Assembly (NCBI GenBank): GCA_006844605.1
Contig: SPJN01000003.1
Coordinates: 1 to 64,000, forward strand
Reading direction: 5' to 3'
Source: Hyphomicrobiales bacterium
Lineage (GTDB): Bacteria; Pseudomonadota; Alphaproteobacteria; SPJN01
DNA: 64,000 bases
Positions 29,733 through 43,093 of this stretch are shown here, in pieces. The translations under genes were made by a program, and so were the position numbers. The notes under the pieces are model-generated. The model searched no databases, had not been told where the DNA came from, and saw only the letters and a list, made by a program, of their open reading frames with translations. How positions within the stretch are numbered: position 1 is the stretch's first letter; every line of letters starts with the position of its first letter.

Positions 29733-30410
29733 CTAGCCAACGAAATCGGCAAGGGCGATTGCAGCACCATTATCATCCTCTCCAACACGCGGCACGCTGG
29801 TGTAGCGCACAGAAGGTGCAAACCGCCTAAGCGCGTTAATGGTTTCTTCGGATGAAACGGGCGCGTCGGTTGATTCAGAAATGACCACAGCGGCAATTTT
29901 GATGTCGTGATTTTGCAGCACTTCAATCGCCGTCAATGTATGACTGATCGTACCCAGATAGCCGCCCGCAACCAGGATTGCAGGCGTGCCAAGCGCGCCC
30001 ATCCAATCAAGCATTGTGTGGGTGTCATCAAGCGGTACGAATACGCCCCCGGCACCTTCGATCAATCCACGATCCGCATCATGGGCCATCACCGCCTGCT
30101 GGCAATGGGCCATTACATCATCAAAGGGGATGGTTTTACCTTCGCGCGCTGCGGCCATATCCGGCGACAGGGCCGCCTGATACCGCCACGGCGTCATGGC
30201 AGCCACGCTGTCCTCTGACACGGTTTGGTCCATAGCGGACAACAGACGCGCAGAATCTGTTTCGTTCAGGTCCAGCTCGCCAAGGCCACTTAAGACCGGT
30301 TTCGCAGCGGCAACACTGAACCCATTGGCGCGCCAACCACGCAGCAACAATGAAGCGATATGGGTCTTGCCGACATCTGTGCCGGTTGCGGTGATGAAAT
30401 AACGGGTCAT
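29733..30410 (-). CDS. bioD: Dethiobiotin synthetase
   Basis: BioD closes the ureido ring of dethiobiotin from 7,8-diaminopelargonate, CO2 and ATP. The 225 residues start with the P-loop ITATGTDVGKTH and continue with AAKPVLSG (the substrate Lys), EGAGGVFVPLDD and a C-terminal nucleotide-binding region. The start overlaps the bioF stop by four bases, so bioF-bioD form a coupled minus-strand pair opposite bioB-bioA. Confidence 0.95.
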   Translation of the reverse strand: MTRYFITATGTDVGKTHIASLLLRGWRANGFSVAAAKPVLSGLGELDLNETDSARLLSAMDQTVSEDSVAAMTPWRYQAALSPDMAAAREGKTIPFDDVMAHCQQAVMAHDADRGLIEGAGGVFVPLDDTHTMLDWMGALGTPAILVAGGYLGTISHTLTAIEVLQNHDIKIAAVVISESTDAPVSSEETINALRRFAPSVRYTSVPRVGEDDNGAAIALADFVG

Positions 30411-31558
30411 GCAATAATTTTCCTTACGGCATCAATAAGCTGATCAAGGTGCGCACGCTCATGCAATGCAGTGAAAGTAAAACGCAGCCGCGCAGTGCCA
30501 TCGGGAACGGTTGGTGGACGGATTGGCGTCACCAGAAAGCCCCGACCCTCAAGTGCCTTTGCGGCCTGCAAGGCCTTGTCCGGTTCCCCGATGATCAGCG
30601 GAACAATCGGCGATTGCGGTTCAGGCAAATTCAAGGCTCGACAAAAATATGCCGCGTTCTGTAAAGGCAGGGCGCAATAGTCAGGTTCGTCCCGGATTAT
30701 CTTCAACGCTGCAAGCGCAGCAGCAGCCGACGCAGGCGGCAGGCCCGTTGAATAAACAAAACTGCGGGCGCGATTACGCAACAACTCAATCACTGATTGG
30801 CTGGCACATAAATAACCGCCATAGCCGCCTATGGCCTTTGATAATGTGCCCATCTGTAGGGCCGGAATGGATCCGGCACCTTCAACGAATGAGGAGCCGC
30901 GCCCATCACCAACAACCCCAATGCCGTGGGCATCATCTGTCATCAGCCATGTATTATGTTGTTCGGCCAATGTCTGTAAATCCGCAACAGGGGCCAAATC
31001 ACCATCCATTGAAAACACGCCATCGGTTATGATCATCACATGATCATACTGGTCACGCTTGTCTGCCAAGGCGCGGGCAACAAACGCCAGATCATTATGG
31101 GGGAAGCGTATTTCGTCAGCGCCGCTTAAACGGGTGCCGGACATCAGACAGGCATGGGCCAGTTCATCAATCAAAATCAAATCGCCTGCACCCATCAGGG
31201 CAGGGATGACACCCAGATTGGTCAAATAGCCAGACCCGAAGACGATTGCGCCCTCGGTTCCCTTAAGGGTTGCCAGCTCCTCTTCAAGTGCGGTCAACAG
31301 GGGGTGATTCCCCGTAATCAAGCGCGAGGCACCTGCGCCGGTGCCGAACATATCCAATGCCTCATGACTGGCCTGAATCAGCCTAGAATCATGGCTTAGG
31401 TTCAAATAGTCATTGCAGCAAAAGGAAATCAGCGTTTTACCATCCCGTTTGACGGTAATCGGGCCATCCCGGTGCGTATCAAACAGGTCGCGCAGTAGGT
31501 TGTTTTCCCGCCGTTCGGTCAGCTTTTCTGCCGCAAATTGGTCAAGTGATTGTGTCAT
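30407..31558 (-). CDS. bioF: 8-amino-7-oxononanoate synthase
   Basis: BioF joins pimeloyl thioester and alanine with PLP. The 383-residue alpha-oxoamine synthase has SFCCNDYLNLSHD, GTGAGASRLITGNHPL, DDAHGIGVVGDGRG and the PLP Lys in GTLSKAIGGYGGYL. It resembles ALA synthase (hemA, 44606-45820) in fold, but the N-terminus and the context with bioD, bioB and bioA make the biotin role clear. ATG 31558 faces bioB across 139 bases containing a dyad and a good promoter. Confidence 0.95.
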   Translation of the reverse strand: MTQSLDQFAAEKLTERRENNLLRDLFDTHRDGPITVKRDGKTLISFCCNDYLNLSHDSRLIQASHEALDMFGTGAGASRLITGNHPLLTALEEELATLKGTEGAIVFGSGYLTNLGVIPALMGAGDLILIDELAHACLMSGTRLSGADEIRFPHNDLAFVARALADKRDQYDHVMIITDGVFSMDGDLAPVADLQTLAEQHNTWLMTDDAHGIGVVGDGRGSSFVEGAGSIPALQMGTLSKAIGGYGGYLCASQSVIELLRNRARSFVYSTGLPPASAAAALAALKIIRDEPDYCALPLQNAAYFCRALNLPEPQSPIVPLIIGEPDKALQAAKALEGRGFLVTPIRPPTVPDGTARLRFTFTALHERAHLDQLIDAVRKIIA

Positions 31559-31596
31559 GGGCGCAACCTGATGGTTTCAGCGAACGAAGTCAAACA

Positions 31597-31609
31597 TTTC
31601 AACTTGAAA
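31597..31609. promoter_or_regulatory. Palindrome between divergent biotin operons
   Basis: TTTCAA-C-TTGAAA is a perfect 6-1-6 dyad in the 139-base region between bioF and bioB. It is placed to act on either operon. It does not match the TTATMKATAA box I recall for BioR, and no regulator gene is nearby, so it is only a candidate operator. Confidence 0.3.
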
Positions 31610-31638
31610 CTGGTTGGTTTGCAGCGCAAAACGGTTGC

Positions 31639-31666
31639 TTGACCTGACCTGTTTGGTCGCTATGCT
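31639..31666 (+). promoter_or_regulatory. Candidate bioB promoter
   Basis: TTGACC (31639-31644), a 16-base spacer and TATGCT (31661-31666) make a good sigma-70 match about 31 bases upstream of bioB. The spacer holds a small dyad GACC-TGTTT-GGTC (31646-31658), which could be a repressor contact. Confidence 0.5.
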
Positions 31667-31697
31667 GGCCCAAATTCGCTAATAAGGACTAATACCA

Positions 31698-32774
31698 ATG
31701 ACTGCATTGTCACAGGAAACGCCAAAGGCCGATAGCCTGCGTGATATGGGCACCGGGGCCGCAACTGCGCCGGGCGATATCCGCCATGATTGGACACGTG
31801 AAGAGATTGAGGCGTTGTTCGCCAAACCGATGAATGATCTGTTGTTTGAAGCGCAAACAACGCATCGGCGTTATTTCGATCCGAACACTGTGCAGATGTC
31901 CACATTGTTGTCGATCAAAACCGGCGGCTGTCCTGAAGATTGCAAATATTGCTCGCAAAGCGCCCATTGGACCGGATCGCCCGTTGAGGCGACCAAGCTG
32001 ATGGAAGTGCAAAAAGTGCTGGATGAAGCCAAGCAGGCAAAAGCTGCTGGTGCCACCCGCTATTGCATGGGCGCCGCTTGGCGTAACCCCAAGGACCGCG
32101 ACATGGACACCGTAGTGGCCATGATTGAAGGCGTCCGGGAACTGGGCATGGAAACATGCATGACACTGGGGATGTTGAGCCCTGAGCAGGCTGGTCAGCT
32201 GAAACATGCGGGCCTTGATTATTACAATCATAATGTCGATAGCTCAGAAGAGTTCTATAAAGAGATCATCACAACCCGTACCTATGAAGATCGCCTGAAC
32301 ACGTTGCAAAATGTGCGTGATGCCGGAATCAATGTTTGCTCTGGCGGCATTGTTGGCATGGGCGAGGGGCGGCAGGACCGCGCCGGGATGTTGATGACAT
32401 TGGCTAATCTTGAAAAGCATCCTGAATCTGTGCCGATCAACATGCTGATCCAAACCGAAGGCACGCCGGTTTTCGGCCTTGATGAGCTTGATCCGTTGGA
32501 ATTTGTGCGCACCGTTGCAGTTGCCCGCATCATGATGCCCAAATCTGTCGTGCGCCTGTCTGCCGGTCGCGAATGGATGAGCGATGAGTTGCAGGCCATG
32601 TGCTTTATGGGTGGTGCAAACTCAATCTTTATCGGCCCGAAATTGCTGACGACTGACAATCCTGCGCAGGAAAAAGATCAGGCACTGTTTGACAAGCTGG
32701 GGATCAAACCCATGCAGGTCGGCACACAGGTTGGCGAAGACGCGCCCGCAACTGATCCGCTTGCAGCGGAATAA
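31698..32774 (+). CDS. bioB: Biotin synthase
   Basis: BioB is the radical SAM enzyme that inserts sulfur into dethiobiotin. The 358 residues contain the [4Fe-4S] motif Cys78-x3-Cys82-x2-Cys85 ([11 protein letters not shown]), the conserved [12 protein letters not shown] block, [10 protein letters not shown] and the [2Fe-2S]-site Arg region with RLSAGREWM. There is a modest N-terminal extension before [12 protein letters not shown] 31698 follows AAGGA. bioA begins nine bases downstream. Confidence 0.97.
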
Positions 32775-32782
32775 GGCTCGTT

Positions 32783-34141
32783 TTGCCCGATAAAAAACCA
32801 CCAACACCATTACCGCCATTACCCAATTGGGCCCCTGACTGGCAAAAGCAGGGCCAGCAGCATGTTTGGCTGCCCTACGCCCAAATGCAAAACACATCGC
32901 CGCCTTTGGCTGCTCAATCAGCCGTTGGCGCGCGGATCAAACTGCATAATGGGGAGGAGTTGATCGATGGCGTCTCGTCATGGTGGACGGCGGCGCATGG
33001 CTATAATCACCCGCATATCAATCAGGCGATTACTGATCAGATGGCAGATTTTTCGCATCTGATGCTGGGCGGTTTCGCGAGCGAGCCTGCCTATCGGTTG
33101 GCAACGCGCCTGTCTGAAAAATTGCCCGGCGACCTTAATCACGTCTTCTTTACAGAGTCTGGATCAGTTTCTGTTGAAGTGGCGTTGAAAATGGCTATCC
33201 AGTTCTTTCAAAACCAGGGGCAGGGGCAAAAGAACAAGATCATCAGCTTCATGGGCGGCTATCACGGCGACACGCTGGGTACGATGGCGATCTGTGATCC
33301 AGAAGAGGGCATGCACTCAATGTTTGATGGTGTATTGCCCGAACAATTTGTGCTGCCGGTGCCGACCGATGAAGAACACCAAGCGGCCTTCAAAACATTC
33401 CTGAACGACCATGCCGATTCATGCGCTGCCATTGTGATCGAACCTTTGGTGCAGGGCGCAGGGGGCTTTAAGGCCCACAGCCCGGCGGTTCTACAATTCC
33501 TGCGCGATTGCGCGGATGAGCATGACCTGATGCTGATCTTTGATGAAATTATGACGGGGTTCGGCAGGCTTGGCCGTTATGCCAACAATGAAGACAATGG
33601 CGGGGATACTGACAGCCTGTTCGTTTGCGGCCAGACCGGTGTTGTGCCGGACATCATCACCCTGTCAAAGGCGCTGACGGGCGGGACACTGCCACTTGCC
33701 GCAACGATCGCCACAGGGCGTATATTCGAAGGCTTTATGAGTGAGGAGCCGGGCAAGGAGCTGATGCACGGCCCGACATTTATGGGCAATGCCCTGTCTT
33801 GCGCGGCGGCGAATGCCTCGCTTGACTTATTTGAACAAGAAGACCGTTTGGGTCAAGTCGATCATATTGCCGCCCAGCTTGATACGCACCTGTCAGCACT
33901 TTCAGACCTGCCACACATCGCTGATGTACGTGTCATGGGTGCCTTGGGCGTAATTGAGGTCGATGAAATGCGTGCCCTGAACGACCTGAAAGCACGCTTT
34001 GTAGAGCAGGGGGTTTGGATCCGACCATTCGGCAATGTCATCTATGTCATGCCGCCGATGATCATTTCCGACGATGACCTTGGCTACCTGCTGGACGTCT
34101 TTGTCAGGACCGTGACCGATTGGACTGCTGGGAAAATTTAG
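32783..34141 (+). CDS. bioA: Adenosylmethionine--8-amino-7-oxononanoate aminotransferase
   Basis: BioA converts 8-amino-7-oxononanoate to 7,8-diaminopelargonate using SAM as amino donor and PLP. The 452-residue class III aminotransferase has VWLPYAQMQ, GVSSWWTAAHGYNHPH, the FDEIMTGFGRLG block, the PLP Lys in LSKALTGGTLPLAA and HGPTFMGNALSCAAA. No ATG exists before the conserved WLPYAQM region, so TTG 32783 with AAGG seven bases upstream is the probable start, and the rare codon may lower its expression. bioB-bioA form a plus-strand pair. Confidence 0.94.
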   Translation: MPDKKPPTPLPPLPNWAPDWQKQGQQHVWLPYAQMQNTSPPLAAQSAVGARIKLHNGEELIDGVSSWWTAAHGYNHPHINQAITDQMADFSHLMLGGFASEPAYRLATRLSEKLPGDLNHVFFTESGSVSVEVALKMAIQFFQNQGQGQKNKIISFMGGYHGDTLGTMAICDPEEGMHSMFDGVLPEQFVLPVPTDEEHQAAFKTFLNDHADSCAAIVIEPLVQGAGGFKAHSPAVLQFLRDCADEHDLMLIFDEIMTGFGRLGRYANNEDNGGDTDSLFVCGQTGVVPDIITLSKALTGGTLPLAATIATGRIFEGFMSEEPGKELMHGPTFMGNALSCAAANASLDLFEQEDRLGQVDHIAAQLDTHLSALSDLPHIADVRVMGALGVIEVDEMRALNDLKARFVEQGVWIRPFGNVIYVMPPMIISDDDLGYLLDVFVRTVTDWTAGKI

Positions 34142-35165: not shown

Positions 35166-35621
35166 ATGAAGGTCATCCGGCAAACCGACAATAAAGACAC
35201 CATTTGCCGGCAAGTATTAGAGGCATTGCCGCATTGGTTCGGCATTGCTGAATCGGTTGATCAATATGTCGCCGATGCCTCAAAACAGCTGATGTTTGTG
35301 GCACAAGATCAATCCCAGCTAGTGGGCATGATCACGTTACAGCAGCACAACAGTCTGAATATAGAAATTGCCGCAATGGGTGTTATGCCGGACCATCACC
35401 GCAATGGCATTGGACGTCAACTCGTAGCAGCCGCAGAACAATTTGCACGTCAGGCTGGCGCCAAAGCGATGACAGTCAAAACATTGTCGTCGCGTGCATC
35501 TGACGAAGGATATGCAAAGACCAGAGCTTTCTATGAAGGTGTCGGTTTTCAGGTATTTGAAGAAATGCCTAGCCTGTGGGATAACGATAACCCGGCGGTT
35601 GTTCTGATCAAGTTTCTATAA
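35166..35621 (+). CDS. GNAT family N-acetyltransferase
   Basis: A 151-residue acetyltransferase-fold protein. The acetyl-CoA motif is MGVMPDHHRNGIGRQLV near residue 78 (Q/R-x-x-G-x-G/A form), followed by VKTLSSRASDEGYAKTRAFYEGVGFQ, the usual end motif with Tyr and Phe. It starts at ATG 35166, three bases after the hydrolase stop, so co-expression is likely. The acceptor substrate is unknown. It is the last gene before the 361-base gap. Confidence 0.85.
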   Translation: MKVIRQTDNKDTICRQVLEALPHWFGIAESVDQYVADASKQLMFVAQDQSQLVGMITLQQHNSLNIEIAAMGVMPDHHRNGIGRQLVAAAEQFARQAGAKAMTVKTLSSRASDEGYAKTRAFYEGVGFQVFEEMPSLWDNDNPAVVLIKFL

Positions 35622-35877
35622 GATGTGGTGCTGTGCGTTTTTGGTGCAGATGAATGTTGCCGCGGACGCTTTTGCTCATGCAGGGGCCGGCGCCTAAGTC
35701 AAGATTCGTAACTGGTTTTATTTTGGCTTACAGGAAGGGCGGGCCAGTTGTCTGATCAGACTATGTGTGGGTAAGCTAAGTTACGTCCATTCTGTCGATG
35801 ATTCCCAAGCTGTTCCGCCGAGTTGCTGTGTTAATCGGCCAGTCCAAGTGTTCCACACGTTTTCCACAACCATCAAA

Positions 35878-35905
35878 TAGTTCCATAATATCTATTATGC
35901 GATAA
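35878..35905 (-). other. dif: dif-like XerC/XerD chromosome dimer resolution site
   Basis: On the minus strand the 28-mer divides into TTATCGCATAA (XerC arm), TAGATA (6-base centre) and TTATGGAACTA (XerD arm). Against E. coli dif as I recall it (GGTGCGCATAA, TGTATA, TTATGTTAAAT) it matches 7/11, 4/6 and 7/11. The diagnostic CGCATAA-6-TTATG core is intact, with a perfect inner dyad CATAATA-GA-TATTATG. Convergent gene orientation and inward-pointing GGGNAGGG octamers on both sides support this reading. Confidence 0.75.
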
Positions 35906-35922
35906 ATTGTTGCCTGTGGATA

Positions 35923-35952
35923 AGAAAAAGGCCGGTTGCAATAACCGGCCTT
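35923..35952 (-). terminator. Rho-independent terminator of the SDR gene
   Basis: A perfect 10-bp stem, AAGGCCGGTT (35928-35937) and AACCGGCCTT (35943-35952), with a 5-base loop. On the minus strand it is followed by TTTCTTA, so it terminates transcripts from the SDR gene ending at 35983. Confidence 0.8.
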
Positions 35953-35982
35953 CCCTTTGATATTATTGATTAAAAATCGCTT

Positions 35983-36756
35983 CTAAGACGCAGCAACCAA
36001 CCCGCCATCAACAGGAATTGTCGTTCCTGTAATGTATGAACTTGCTTCTGACGCAAGGAACATTGCAACCCCCGCCATATCCGCAGGCACACCGATACGC
36101 TTGCGCGGCACAGATTGGACAAGTGCGTCACCAAAATTGTCGATCGTCGCCTTCATCATTTTCGATTGGAACGGCCCCGGCGCAATCCCCGTGACGTTAA
36201 TGTGATCACGCGCCAAGCGACTGGCCAAATGCCGCGTCAGATTGATCACCGCAGCCTTGCTTGATGAATAGGCATAGGTTTCAAGCCCCGGTGCGTGCAT
36301 CCCGTCAATTGATGCGGTGTTGATCACACGGGCCGGATTTTCATGGCTACCAGCCGCACGCAGCTCAGGCAGTAGTTTTTGGGTCAAAAAGAAGATCGAT
36401 TTGACATTCAGGCTCATCACCTTGTCCCAACCGGCTTCAGGATACTCGTCAATCGGCGCGCCCCAATTGGCACCCGCATTGTTGATCAATACATCAAGCT
36501 GCCCTTCACGTTCCTTAATGTCCGCGGCCAGCTTTTCAATGCCGGCCATGGATCCAAGGTCATTGGGTAGCGCGATACACGTCCCGCCCTCATCCGTCAG
36601 GCGCTTGGCAACTTCAGCACAGGCCGCAATATCACGTGATGAGATATAGACCTTTGCGCCATTGGCAGCAAAGCCAGTTGCAATCATCTCGCCAATACCG
36701 CGAGAGCCGCCGGTAACCAAAACGGTCTTGCCAGACACATCAAATAGATTTTTCAT
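35983..36756 (-). CDS. SDR family oxidoreductase (RhlG/FabG-like)
   Basis: A 257-residue classical short-chain dehydrogenase with TGGSRGIG (residues 15-22), NNAGANWG, the catalytic Ser in NTASIDG and Tyr/Lys in YAYSSSKAAV. The C-terminus SYITGTTIPVDGG is standard. The SSR near residue 40 suggests NADPH. Closest family resemblance is to RhlG-like NADPH beta-ketoacyl reductases; the substrate is not known. It is monocistronic with a strong terminator, divergent from mazG. Confidence 0.87.
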   Translation of the reverse strand: MKNLFDVSGKTVLVTGGSRGIGEMIATGFAANGAKVYISSRDIAACAEVAKRLTDEGGTCIALPNDLGSMAGIEKLAADIKEREGQLDVLINNAGANWGAPIDEYPEAGWDKVMSLNVKSIFFLTQKLLPELRAAGSHENPARVINTASIDGMHAPGLETYAYSSSKAAVINLTRHLASRLARDHINVTGIAPGPFQSKMMKATIDNFGDALVQSVPRKRIGVPADMAGVAMFLASEASSYITGTTIPVDGGLVAAS

Positions 36757-41442: not shown

Positions 41443-42579
41443 TTAAGGCTGTTTGACCCAGATGTCCAAAAGGTCTTCACCTAATTTCTCCTGCCGCGAC
41501 AGTTGATAGCGGGGCATGTTAACCAGCTTATCAATGCCAAACGCCTCAATCGCTGGTAATCCGTCCCCACCGATGACCCCGCCAGCCCTAAACCAGCTGA
41601 TCATATCAACCAGGCCAAGCGCCAACAGGCTGCCTGCAACCTGACTGCCACCTTCGACCAAAAGGCGCGAAATACCGCGCAGGGCCAGTTGTTCAAGGGC
41701 AGCATCCAAGGGGACGCCTTCTGCGCCTGCTTTCGGCACCGGGATGCCCACAACCTCAACCCCGGCCTTTTCAAACGCCTTGCGGCGGGCCTTTTCTGCA
41801 CCTTCACGTGTCAAAATGATGGTTCGCACGTCACTGGCTGTTTTTACCAGATTGGCAGTCAATGGCAGACGAAGATGACTATCCAGCACAATGCGGGTTG
41901 GGGAGCGTCCCTCAAGCCCCGGCAAACGACAGGTCAGCGACGGATCATCAGCCAAAGCAGTGCCCAGCCCAACCAAAATGCCATCAAATCGCGCCCGCAT
42001 CAGATGGGCACGGGCACGGGCCGCGCTACCGGTAATCCATTGCGATTGGCCTGTATGGGTGGCAATGCGACCATCAAGCGAGGTGCCAAATTTCAGCATA
42101 ACCATCGGACGGTCATGTTCCAGCACCGTCCGGAAACCGGCATGACTGCGTTGCGCGTCCTGCGCCAGCACCCCGGTTGTTACGGTCATCCCCGCCGCTT
42201 CCAATTGCGTGTGACCTTGGCCCGCCACAGCAGGATTGGGGTCTTCCATGGCAGACACAACCCGCGTGACCCCCGCCGCAATCAGCGCGGATGTACATGG
42301 CGGTGATTTTCCTTGATGGGCGCAGGGTTCCAGCGTGACATAGGCGGTAGCACCTTTCGTCACGTTTGGACCAAAACGATCCTGTGCCGCAGCAATCGCG
42401 GCAACTTCTGCATGGGGCCTGCCACCCGGTTGCGTGGTGCCCCGGCCAACAACATGGCCGTCCTTCACCAACACACAGCCGACAGAAGGATTGGGAGCCA
42501 CCTGCCCCAATCCGCGCCGGCCCATCATCAGGGCCATGCGCATAAAGTGATGATCGCTAGTCGCGCTCAATATCGCCAT
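41443..42579 (-). CDS. ribD: Bifunctional riboflavin deaminase/reductase RibD
   Basis: RibD deaminates the pyrimidine made from GTP and then reduces its sugar. The 378 residues comprise an N-terminal CDA-fold deaminase with zinc ligands in HAEVAAI and [11 protein letters not shown], and a C-terminal reductase ([20 protein letters not shown]). I start at ATG 42579, with GGCGGGG upstream; it overlaps the nrdR end by 23 bases. ATG 42543 is less likely and the long frame from 42660 lies inside nrdR. Confidence 0.94.
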
Positions 42580-43030
42580 CCGGCCCCGCCAGATTGCCAA
42601 GGAAGCTTTCGAAATCCTTGGTCTCGCGGAAGTTTTTGTAGACGGAGGCAAAGCGCACATAGGCGACGGAATCCAGATTGGCCAGACCTTCCATCACCAG
42701 TTCGCCAACAACATCAGACGGAATTTCATTTTCACCCAGCGATTCCAGACGGCGCTGGATACCGGTAACCATCTGATCAACACGATCAGGGTCAACCGGA
42801 CGCTTGCGCAACGCCATAGAGACTGAGCGCATCATTTTTTCCCGGTCGAACGGCACGCGACGGCCACTTTTCTTAACCACGGTCAGTTCACGAAGCTGCA
42901 CACGTTCAAATGTGGTGAAGCGTGCGCCACAGGCTGAACAAAGCCGACGACGACGAATTGCCGTGCCGTCCTCTGACGGTCGTGAATCTTTGACCTGCGT
43001 GTCTTCATTCCCGCAAAAAGGACAGCGCAT
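42557..43030 (-). CDS. nrdR: Transcriptional repressor NrdR
   Basis: NrdR represses ribonucleotide reductase genes in response to ATP/dATP. The 157 residues have a zinc ribbon with Cys3, Cys6, Cys31 and Cys34 and the DNA-binding [18 protein letters not shown] segment, followed by the ATP-cone domain with [14 protein letters not shown] and [12 protein letters not shown]. It heads the riboflavin run and its end overlaps ribD. A terminator lies just upstream, separating it from glyA. Confidence 0.96.
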
Positions 43031-43045
43031 CGGATAACCCCCAAA

Positions 43046-43081
43046 ACAAAAGAACCGCCCTACCCCTGATGGGTAAGGCGG
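43046..43081 (-). terminator. Rho-independent terminator of glyA
   Basis: CCGCCCTACCC (43055-43065) and GGGTAAGGCGG (43071-43081) form an 11-bp stem on the minus strand (one G-U pair) with a 5-base loop, followed by TTCTTTTGT. It lies between the glyA stop and the nrdR start and should end glyA transcription. Confidence 0.75.
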
Positions 43082-43093
43082 CGATATTACAAA

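Follow-up and report, generated by a model that had tools for sequence, protein, structure and literature searches.

The window analysed here takes up the initial 64 kb of a contig of 212,351 bp, in a genome assembled as 46 unordered contigs, and covers 36 kb of the arm to the left of the feature described below. Within it, two convergent genes, encoding a GNAT acetyltransferase and a short-chain dehydrogenase/reductase (SDR), are separated by a stop-to-stop gap of 361 bp (35622–35982) that holds a dif site, the target of the XerC and XerD recombinases (Table 1). This had been described beforehand as the only large gene-free gap in the window, which is roughly right; the interval 42661–43093 is nominally larger, but is mostly covered by a 157-aa open reading frame (42557–43030, minus strand). 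To judge from its sequence, the hairpin that lies in the gap, on the SDR side of the dif site, is likely to be the intrinsic terminator of the SDR gene. The genes that were tested beside the site (BioB, BioA, MazG, ThiL, NusB and RibBA) are ordinary chromosomal ones. Just left of the terminus, the interval 29733–34141 carries bioB, bioA and a gene for a class I/II aminotransferase; this is likely to be a biotin gene cluster, in which the aminotransferase gene may be bioF.

Table 1. Features of the dif-containing gap and its bordering genes (positions in the window).
Feature	Position	Strand	Description
GNAT acetyltransferase gene	35166–35621	+	PF00583; stop codon toward dif
DnaA-box-like 9-mer TTTTCCACA	35860–35868	+	Outer left arm of inverted repeat; one mismatch
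dif site	35878–35905	-	28-mer TTATCGCATAATAGATATTATGGAACTA; sole exact core in genome, class-profile score
XerD arm of dif TTATGGAACTA	35878–35888	-	
dif centre TAGATA	35889–35894	-	
XerC arm of dif TTATCGCATAA	35895–35905	-	
DnaA-box consensus 9-mer TTATCCACA	35915–35923	-	Outer right arm of inverted repeat; perfect
Hairpin AAGGCCGGTT-N5-AACCGGCCTT	35928–35952	-	Perfect 10-nt arms, T-rich tail, RNA fold
SDR gene	35983–36756	-	PF13561 / PF00106; convergent with GNAT gene

Sequence and copy number of the dif site

The site has the layout of an 11-bp XerC arm, a 6-bp centre and an 11-bp XerD arm with a conserved inner dyad, and its arms and centre read on the minus strand as the original prediction had them. 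The CGCATAA-N6-TTATG core and inner dyad, which that prediction held to be retained, are indeed present, with the CGCATAAT and ATATTATG blocks both intact. Without mismatch, this core occurs once in the 2,013,842-bp assembly (92% complete), namely in the dif 28-mer itself, consistent with the single copy that had been anticipated. The next best matches in the assembly carry one mismatch each and do not have the dif centre; a search of the same assembly for a better dif match elsewhere found none. Recounting lowered the identity with the E. coli dif sequence from the 18 of 28 positions first claimed to 17.

Scored against a 28-position matrix built from 59 sites of the same class (consensus TTGTCGCATAATATATATTATGGAAAAT), the 28-mer reaches 31.0 bits and its reverse complement 15.5 bits; elsewhere on the 212-kb contig, the best unrelated site has 3.4 bits. 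The 59 class sites themselves span 20.7–49.0 bits, so that the site has a normal score, on the low side. Its departures from the consensus include position 14, a G that is shared by three of the 59 other class sites, and positions 26–28. Of 58 class relatives, 50 have a match to a tighter pattern, CGCATAATNNATATTATG, with at most two mismatches, in many as one exact site, and its reversed control gave few matches; a larger sample of 385 genomes, 274 of them with a match, agreed with this. Relatives of the same class thus usually have one comparable dif site. The genome set contains no other member of the same order, and a search for a close relative through RibBA homologues found none, the closest one in the named collection, at 67% identity, coming from an alphaproteobacterial MAG. 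In a Rhodospirillales MAG (L117, 20986–21013), a dif-like sequence, ATGCCGCATAATAAATATTATGGAACTC, lies ~10 kb downstream of ribBA and on the same side as here; this proximity may reflect either a shared neighbourhood or coincidence.

Chromosomal dif sites of Alphaproteobacteria resemble the present one in length (28 bp), in the 11-6-11 layout, in the CGCATAAT...ATATTATGG core, in being single copy and in lying at the point of skew shift. By contrast, they have T where the site here has G at position 14, and their XerD arm ends in AAT where the arm here ends in CTA. E. coli dif is alike in the intact CGCATAAT and ATATTATG blocks and in the convergence of the KOPS GGGNAGGG upon it, but is unlike it in the outer halves of both arms. 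When the gap was compared with plasmids by plain blastn, the only matches were to plasmids of the rhizobial group, and in both of those inspected the matched region is dif-like sequence. These rhizobial megaplasmid sites (n = 2) have an XerD arm of AGTTCCATAA type and the XerC arm TTATGCGAT; they lie on secondary replicons, whereas the dif described here lies at the terminus of a chromosome-scale contig.

GC skew, octamer polarity and gene strands

The cumulative GC skew, computed over the 212,351-bp contig with its left arm of 36 kb, has its maximum at 35775, ~100 bp from dif, where the original prediction called for an extremum. To the right of dif it trends downward over 176 kb, with its minimum at the contig end. 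Bulk GC skew follows gene orientation in part. Split by gene strand, the third-codon-position skew is about -0.03 and 0.01 on the left and -0.13 and -0.09 on the far right, a modest shift across dif, and the intergenic skew passes from +0.02 to -0.04 and -0.07. Taken alone, the skew is moderate evidence for a terminus.

The octamers provide strong and independent evidence. The KOPS-like octamer GGGNAGGG occurs 11 times in forward and never in reverse orientation to the left of dif, and once in forward and 46 times in reverse orientation to its right; it thus points toward dif in 57 of 58 instances on the contig, with the best switch point at 33.25–37.25 kb. When all octamers on the contig were ranked by polarity, GGGCAGGG was the most polarised (43:0 about dif). 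Second to it ranks GTTGATGA, polarised 33:1.

A simple gene call returned 27 plus and 8 minus genes to the left of dif, in agreement with the 27 of 35 first counted. On the right, up to 52.5 kb, genes do run mainly on the minus strand as claimed, at 14 minus and 2 plus, close to the 15 of 17 first counted. Between 52300 and 64000, still to the right of dif, genes are mostly on the plus strand, the GC skew is near zero and GGGNAGGG continues to point toward dif. Because GGGNAGGG keeps this direction across 52.5–64 kb despite the plus-strand genes, its polarity is no by-product of gene direction. A recent inversion to the right of 52 kb was considered as an explanation for these plus-strand genes and rejected, the polarity of GGGNAGGG being unchanged within the block.

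The skew maximum and the convergence of GGGNAGGG on dif together support the earlier proposal that the window spans the chromosome terminus. Kono et al. (2011; PMC3025954), who predicted dif in 641 organisms, note that its position correlates with the skew shift but argue that dif is not necessarily the point at which replication terminates, a caution that applies to the present dif too. We conclude that the 28-mer is almost certainly the dif of the chromosome, in an alphaproteobacterium whose lineage is sparsely sampled, and that it is situated where the chromosome arms converge. Counting against this are the missing matches to FtsK and LolA described below, the departures from consensus at position 14 and positions 26–28, and the modest change in third-codon-position skew. 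As such, it is an ordinary alphaproteobacterial site, somewhat diverged, that was to be expected and is not new.

Inverted DnaA-box-like flanks and alternative readings

The only part of the locus that would be surprising is the pair of DnaA-box-like 9-mers on either side of dif. They form the outer ends of a 64-bp imperfect palindrome, with arms at 35860–35890 and 35893–35923, whose midpoint, 35891.5, is exactly that of dif. Of the 18 flank positions outside the 28-mer, 13 are dyad-matched; a fraction 3.8e-5 of all centres on the contig attain this, and the 59 class dif sites have at most 9 such matches (mean 4.9). The two boxes, TTTTCCACA and TTATCCACA, are also the only two TTWTCCACA sequences in the 64-kb window; this motif, like the flank width, was chosen after viewing the sequence. 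Among the class dif sites examined, inverted flanks of this kind occur here only. No class-wide conservation of the flanks was found in the 59 class dif sites or in a spacing search, and the one other match at the flank spacing is absent from its genus-mate. Across the genome, TTATCCACA is not enriched, with 17 occurrences in 2.01 Mb against 19 for the reversed pattern. Pairs of TTATCCACA elsewhere (on contig C36 near dnaB, rpsF and rplI) were considered as a mark of oriC, and did not mark it. Chance, a transcript-end hairpin and a lineage-specific binding site are all possible origins of the flanks.

Should the palindrome be a transcript-end hairpin of the convergent gene pair, it would have no role in Xer recombination. 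It does lie between convergent genes and adjoins a strong terminator hairpin, and RNA folding of a 68-nt stretch is favourable for both strands (z -2.6 and -3.6). This explanation is nevertheless unlikely: neither strand has a T-run after the outer arm, and the hairpin close by, at 35928–35952, would already serve as the terminator.

Alternatively, around a genuine dif core, the DnaA-box-ended flanks might be a lineage-specific accessory element, bound on both sides by a protein (possibly DnaA) that would link dimer resolution, or the handling of the terminus, to the replication status. The exact symmetry about the dif centre of one perfect and one single-mismatch box in inverted orientation, their uniqueness in the window and a dyad match in the flanks beyond that of any class dif site all favour such an element. 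Against this, the motif and the flank width were picked post hoc, TTATCCACA is unenriched genome-wide and the flanks lack conservation in the class; the accessory element is very unlikely. It is, likewise, highly doubtful that in this lineage the initiator, or another reader of the motif, acts at the terminus through a dif enclosed by inverted DnaA boxes, and thereby couples dimer resolution to the replication state.

Least probable is that the 28-mer resembles dif by chance, or is an attachment scar left by a Xer-exploiting mobile element, with the true dif in the unassembled 8%: the assembly is incomplete, but this very 28-mer is where the skew peaks and the KOPS converge, the adjoining genes tested are ordinary chromosomal ones, and neither the 21-base core nor the double-flank pattern has a match in viral contigs. 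A mobile element at dif was rejected on the last two of these findings; matches in phage records were weak (E 0.2–0.8) and mostly over the AT-rich core.

Xer machinery and the proposed role of the site

XerC and XerD act at dif to separate fused chromosome copies before division, and FtsK, guided by KOPS, activates XerD. The assembly carries an XerD-like gene (C27:51803), with TIGR02225 as its best equivalog model (310 bits, under the curated cut-off of 329.6), and an XerC-like gene (C20:136403), with TIGR02224 as its best equivalog model (291 bits, under the curated cut-off of 335.15). Both are open frames for full-length tyrosine recombinases, and the R, K, HxxR, H and Y motifs are present in their translations. 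The FtsK motor (PF01580) and FtsK gamma (PF09397) domains had no match in the 92%-complete assembly, and neither had LolA, which was sought as a marker of a missing ftsK at a contig end, lolA being a usual neighbour of ftsK in Alphaproteobacteria. Given the strong KOPS polarity and the 92% completeness, the missing FtsK, together with LolA, is probably an assembly gap, a single unassembled stretch, a reading that the LolA result supports only indirectly; true loss of FtsK is a possible alternative.

Extrapolating from established XerCD/FtsK biology, XerC would bind at TTATCGCATAA and XerD at TTATGGAACTA. In sister chromosomes fused by recombination, FtsK would translocate DNA toward dif, directed by the GGGCAGGG orientation of the arms, and, on arrival there, would activate XerD, upon which XerCD would recombine the two dif copies to yield monomers.

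The dif site fixes the chromosome terminus for an order otherwise unrepresented in the genome set, and it does so with a coordinate that is usable for arm assignment, gene dosage and growth-rate estimates. The E. coli KOPS sequence GGGCAGGG, moreover, works as a polar marker in this chromosome.
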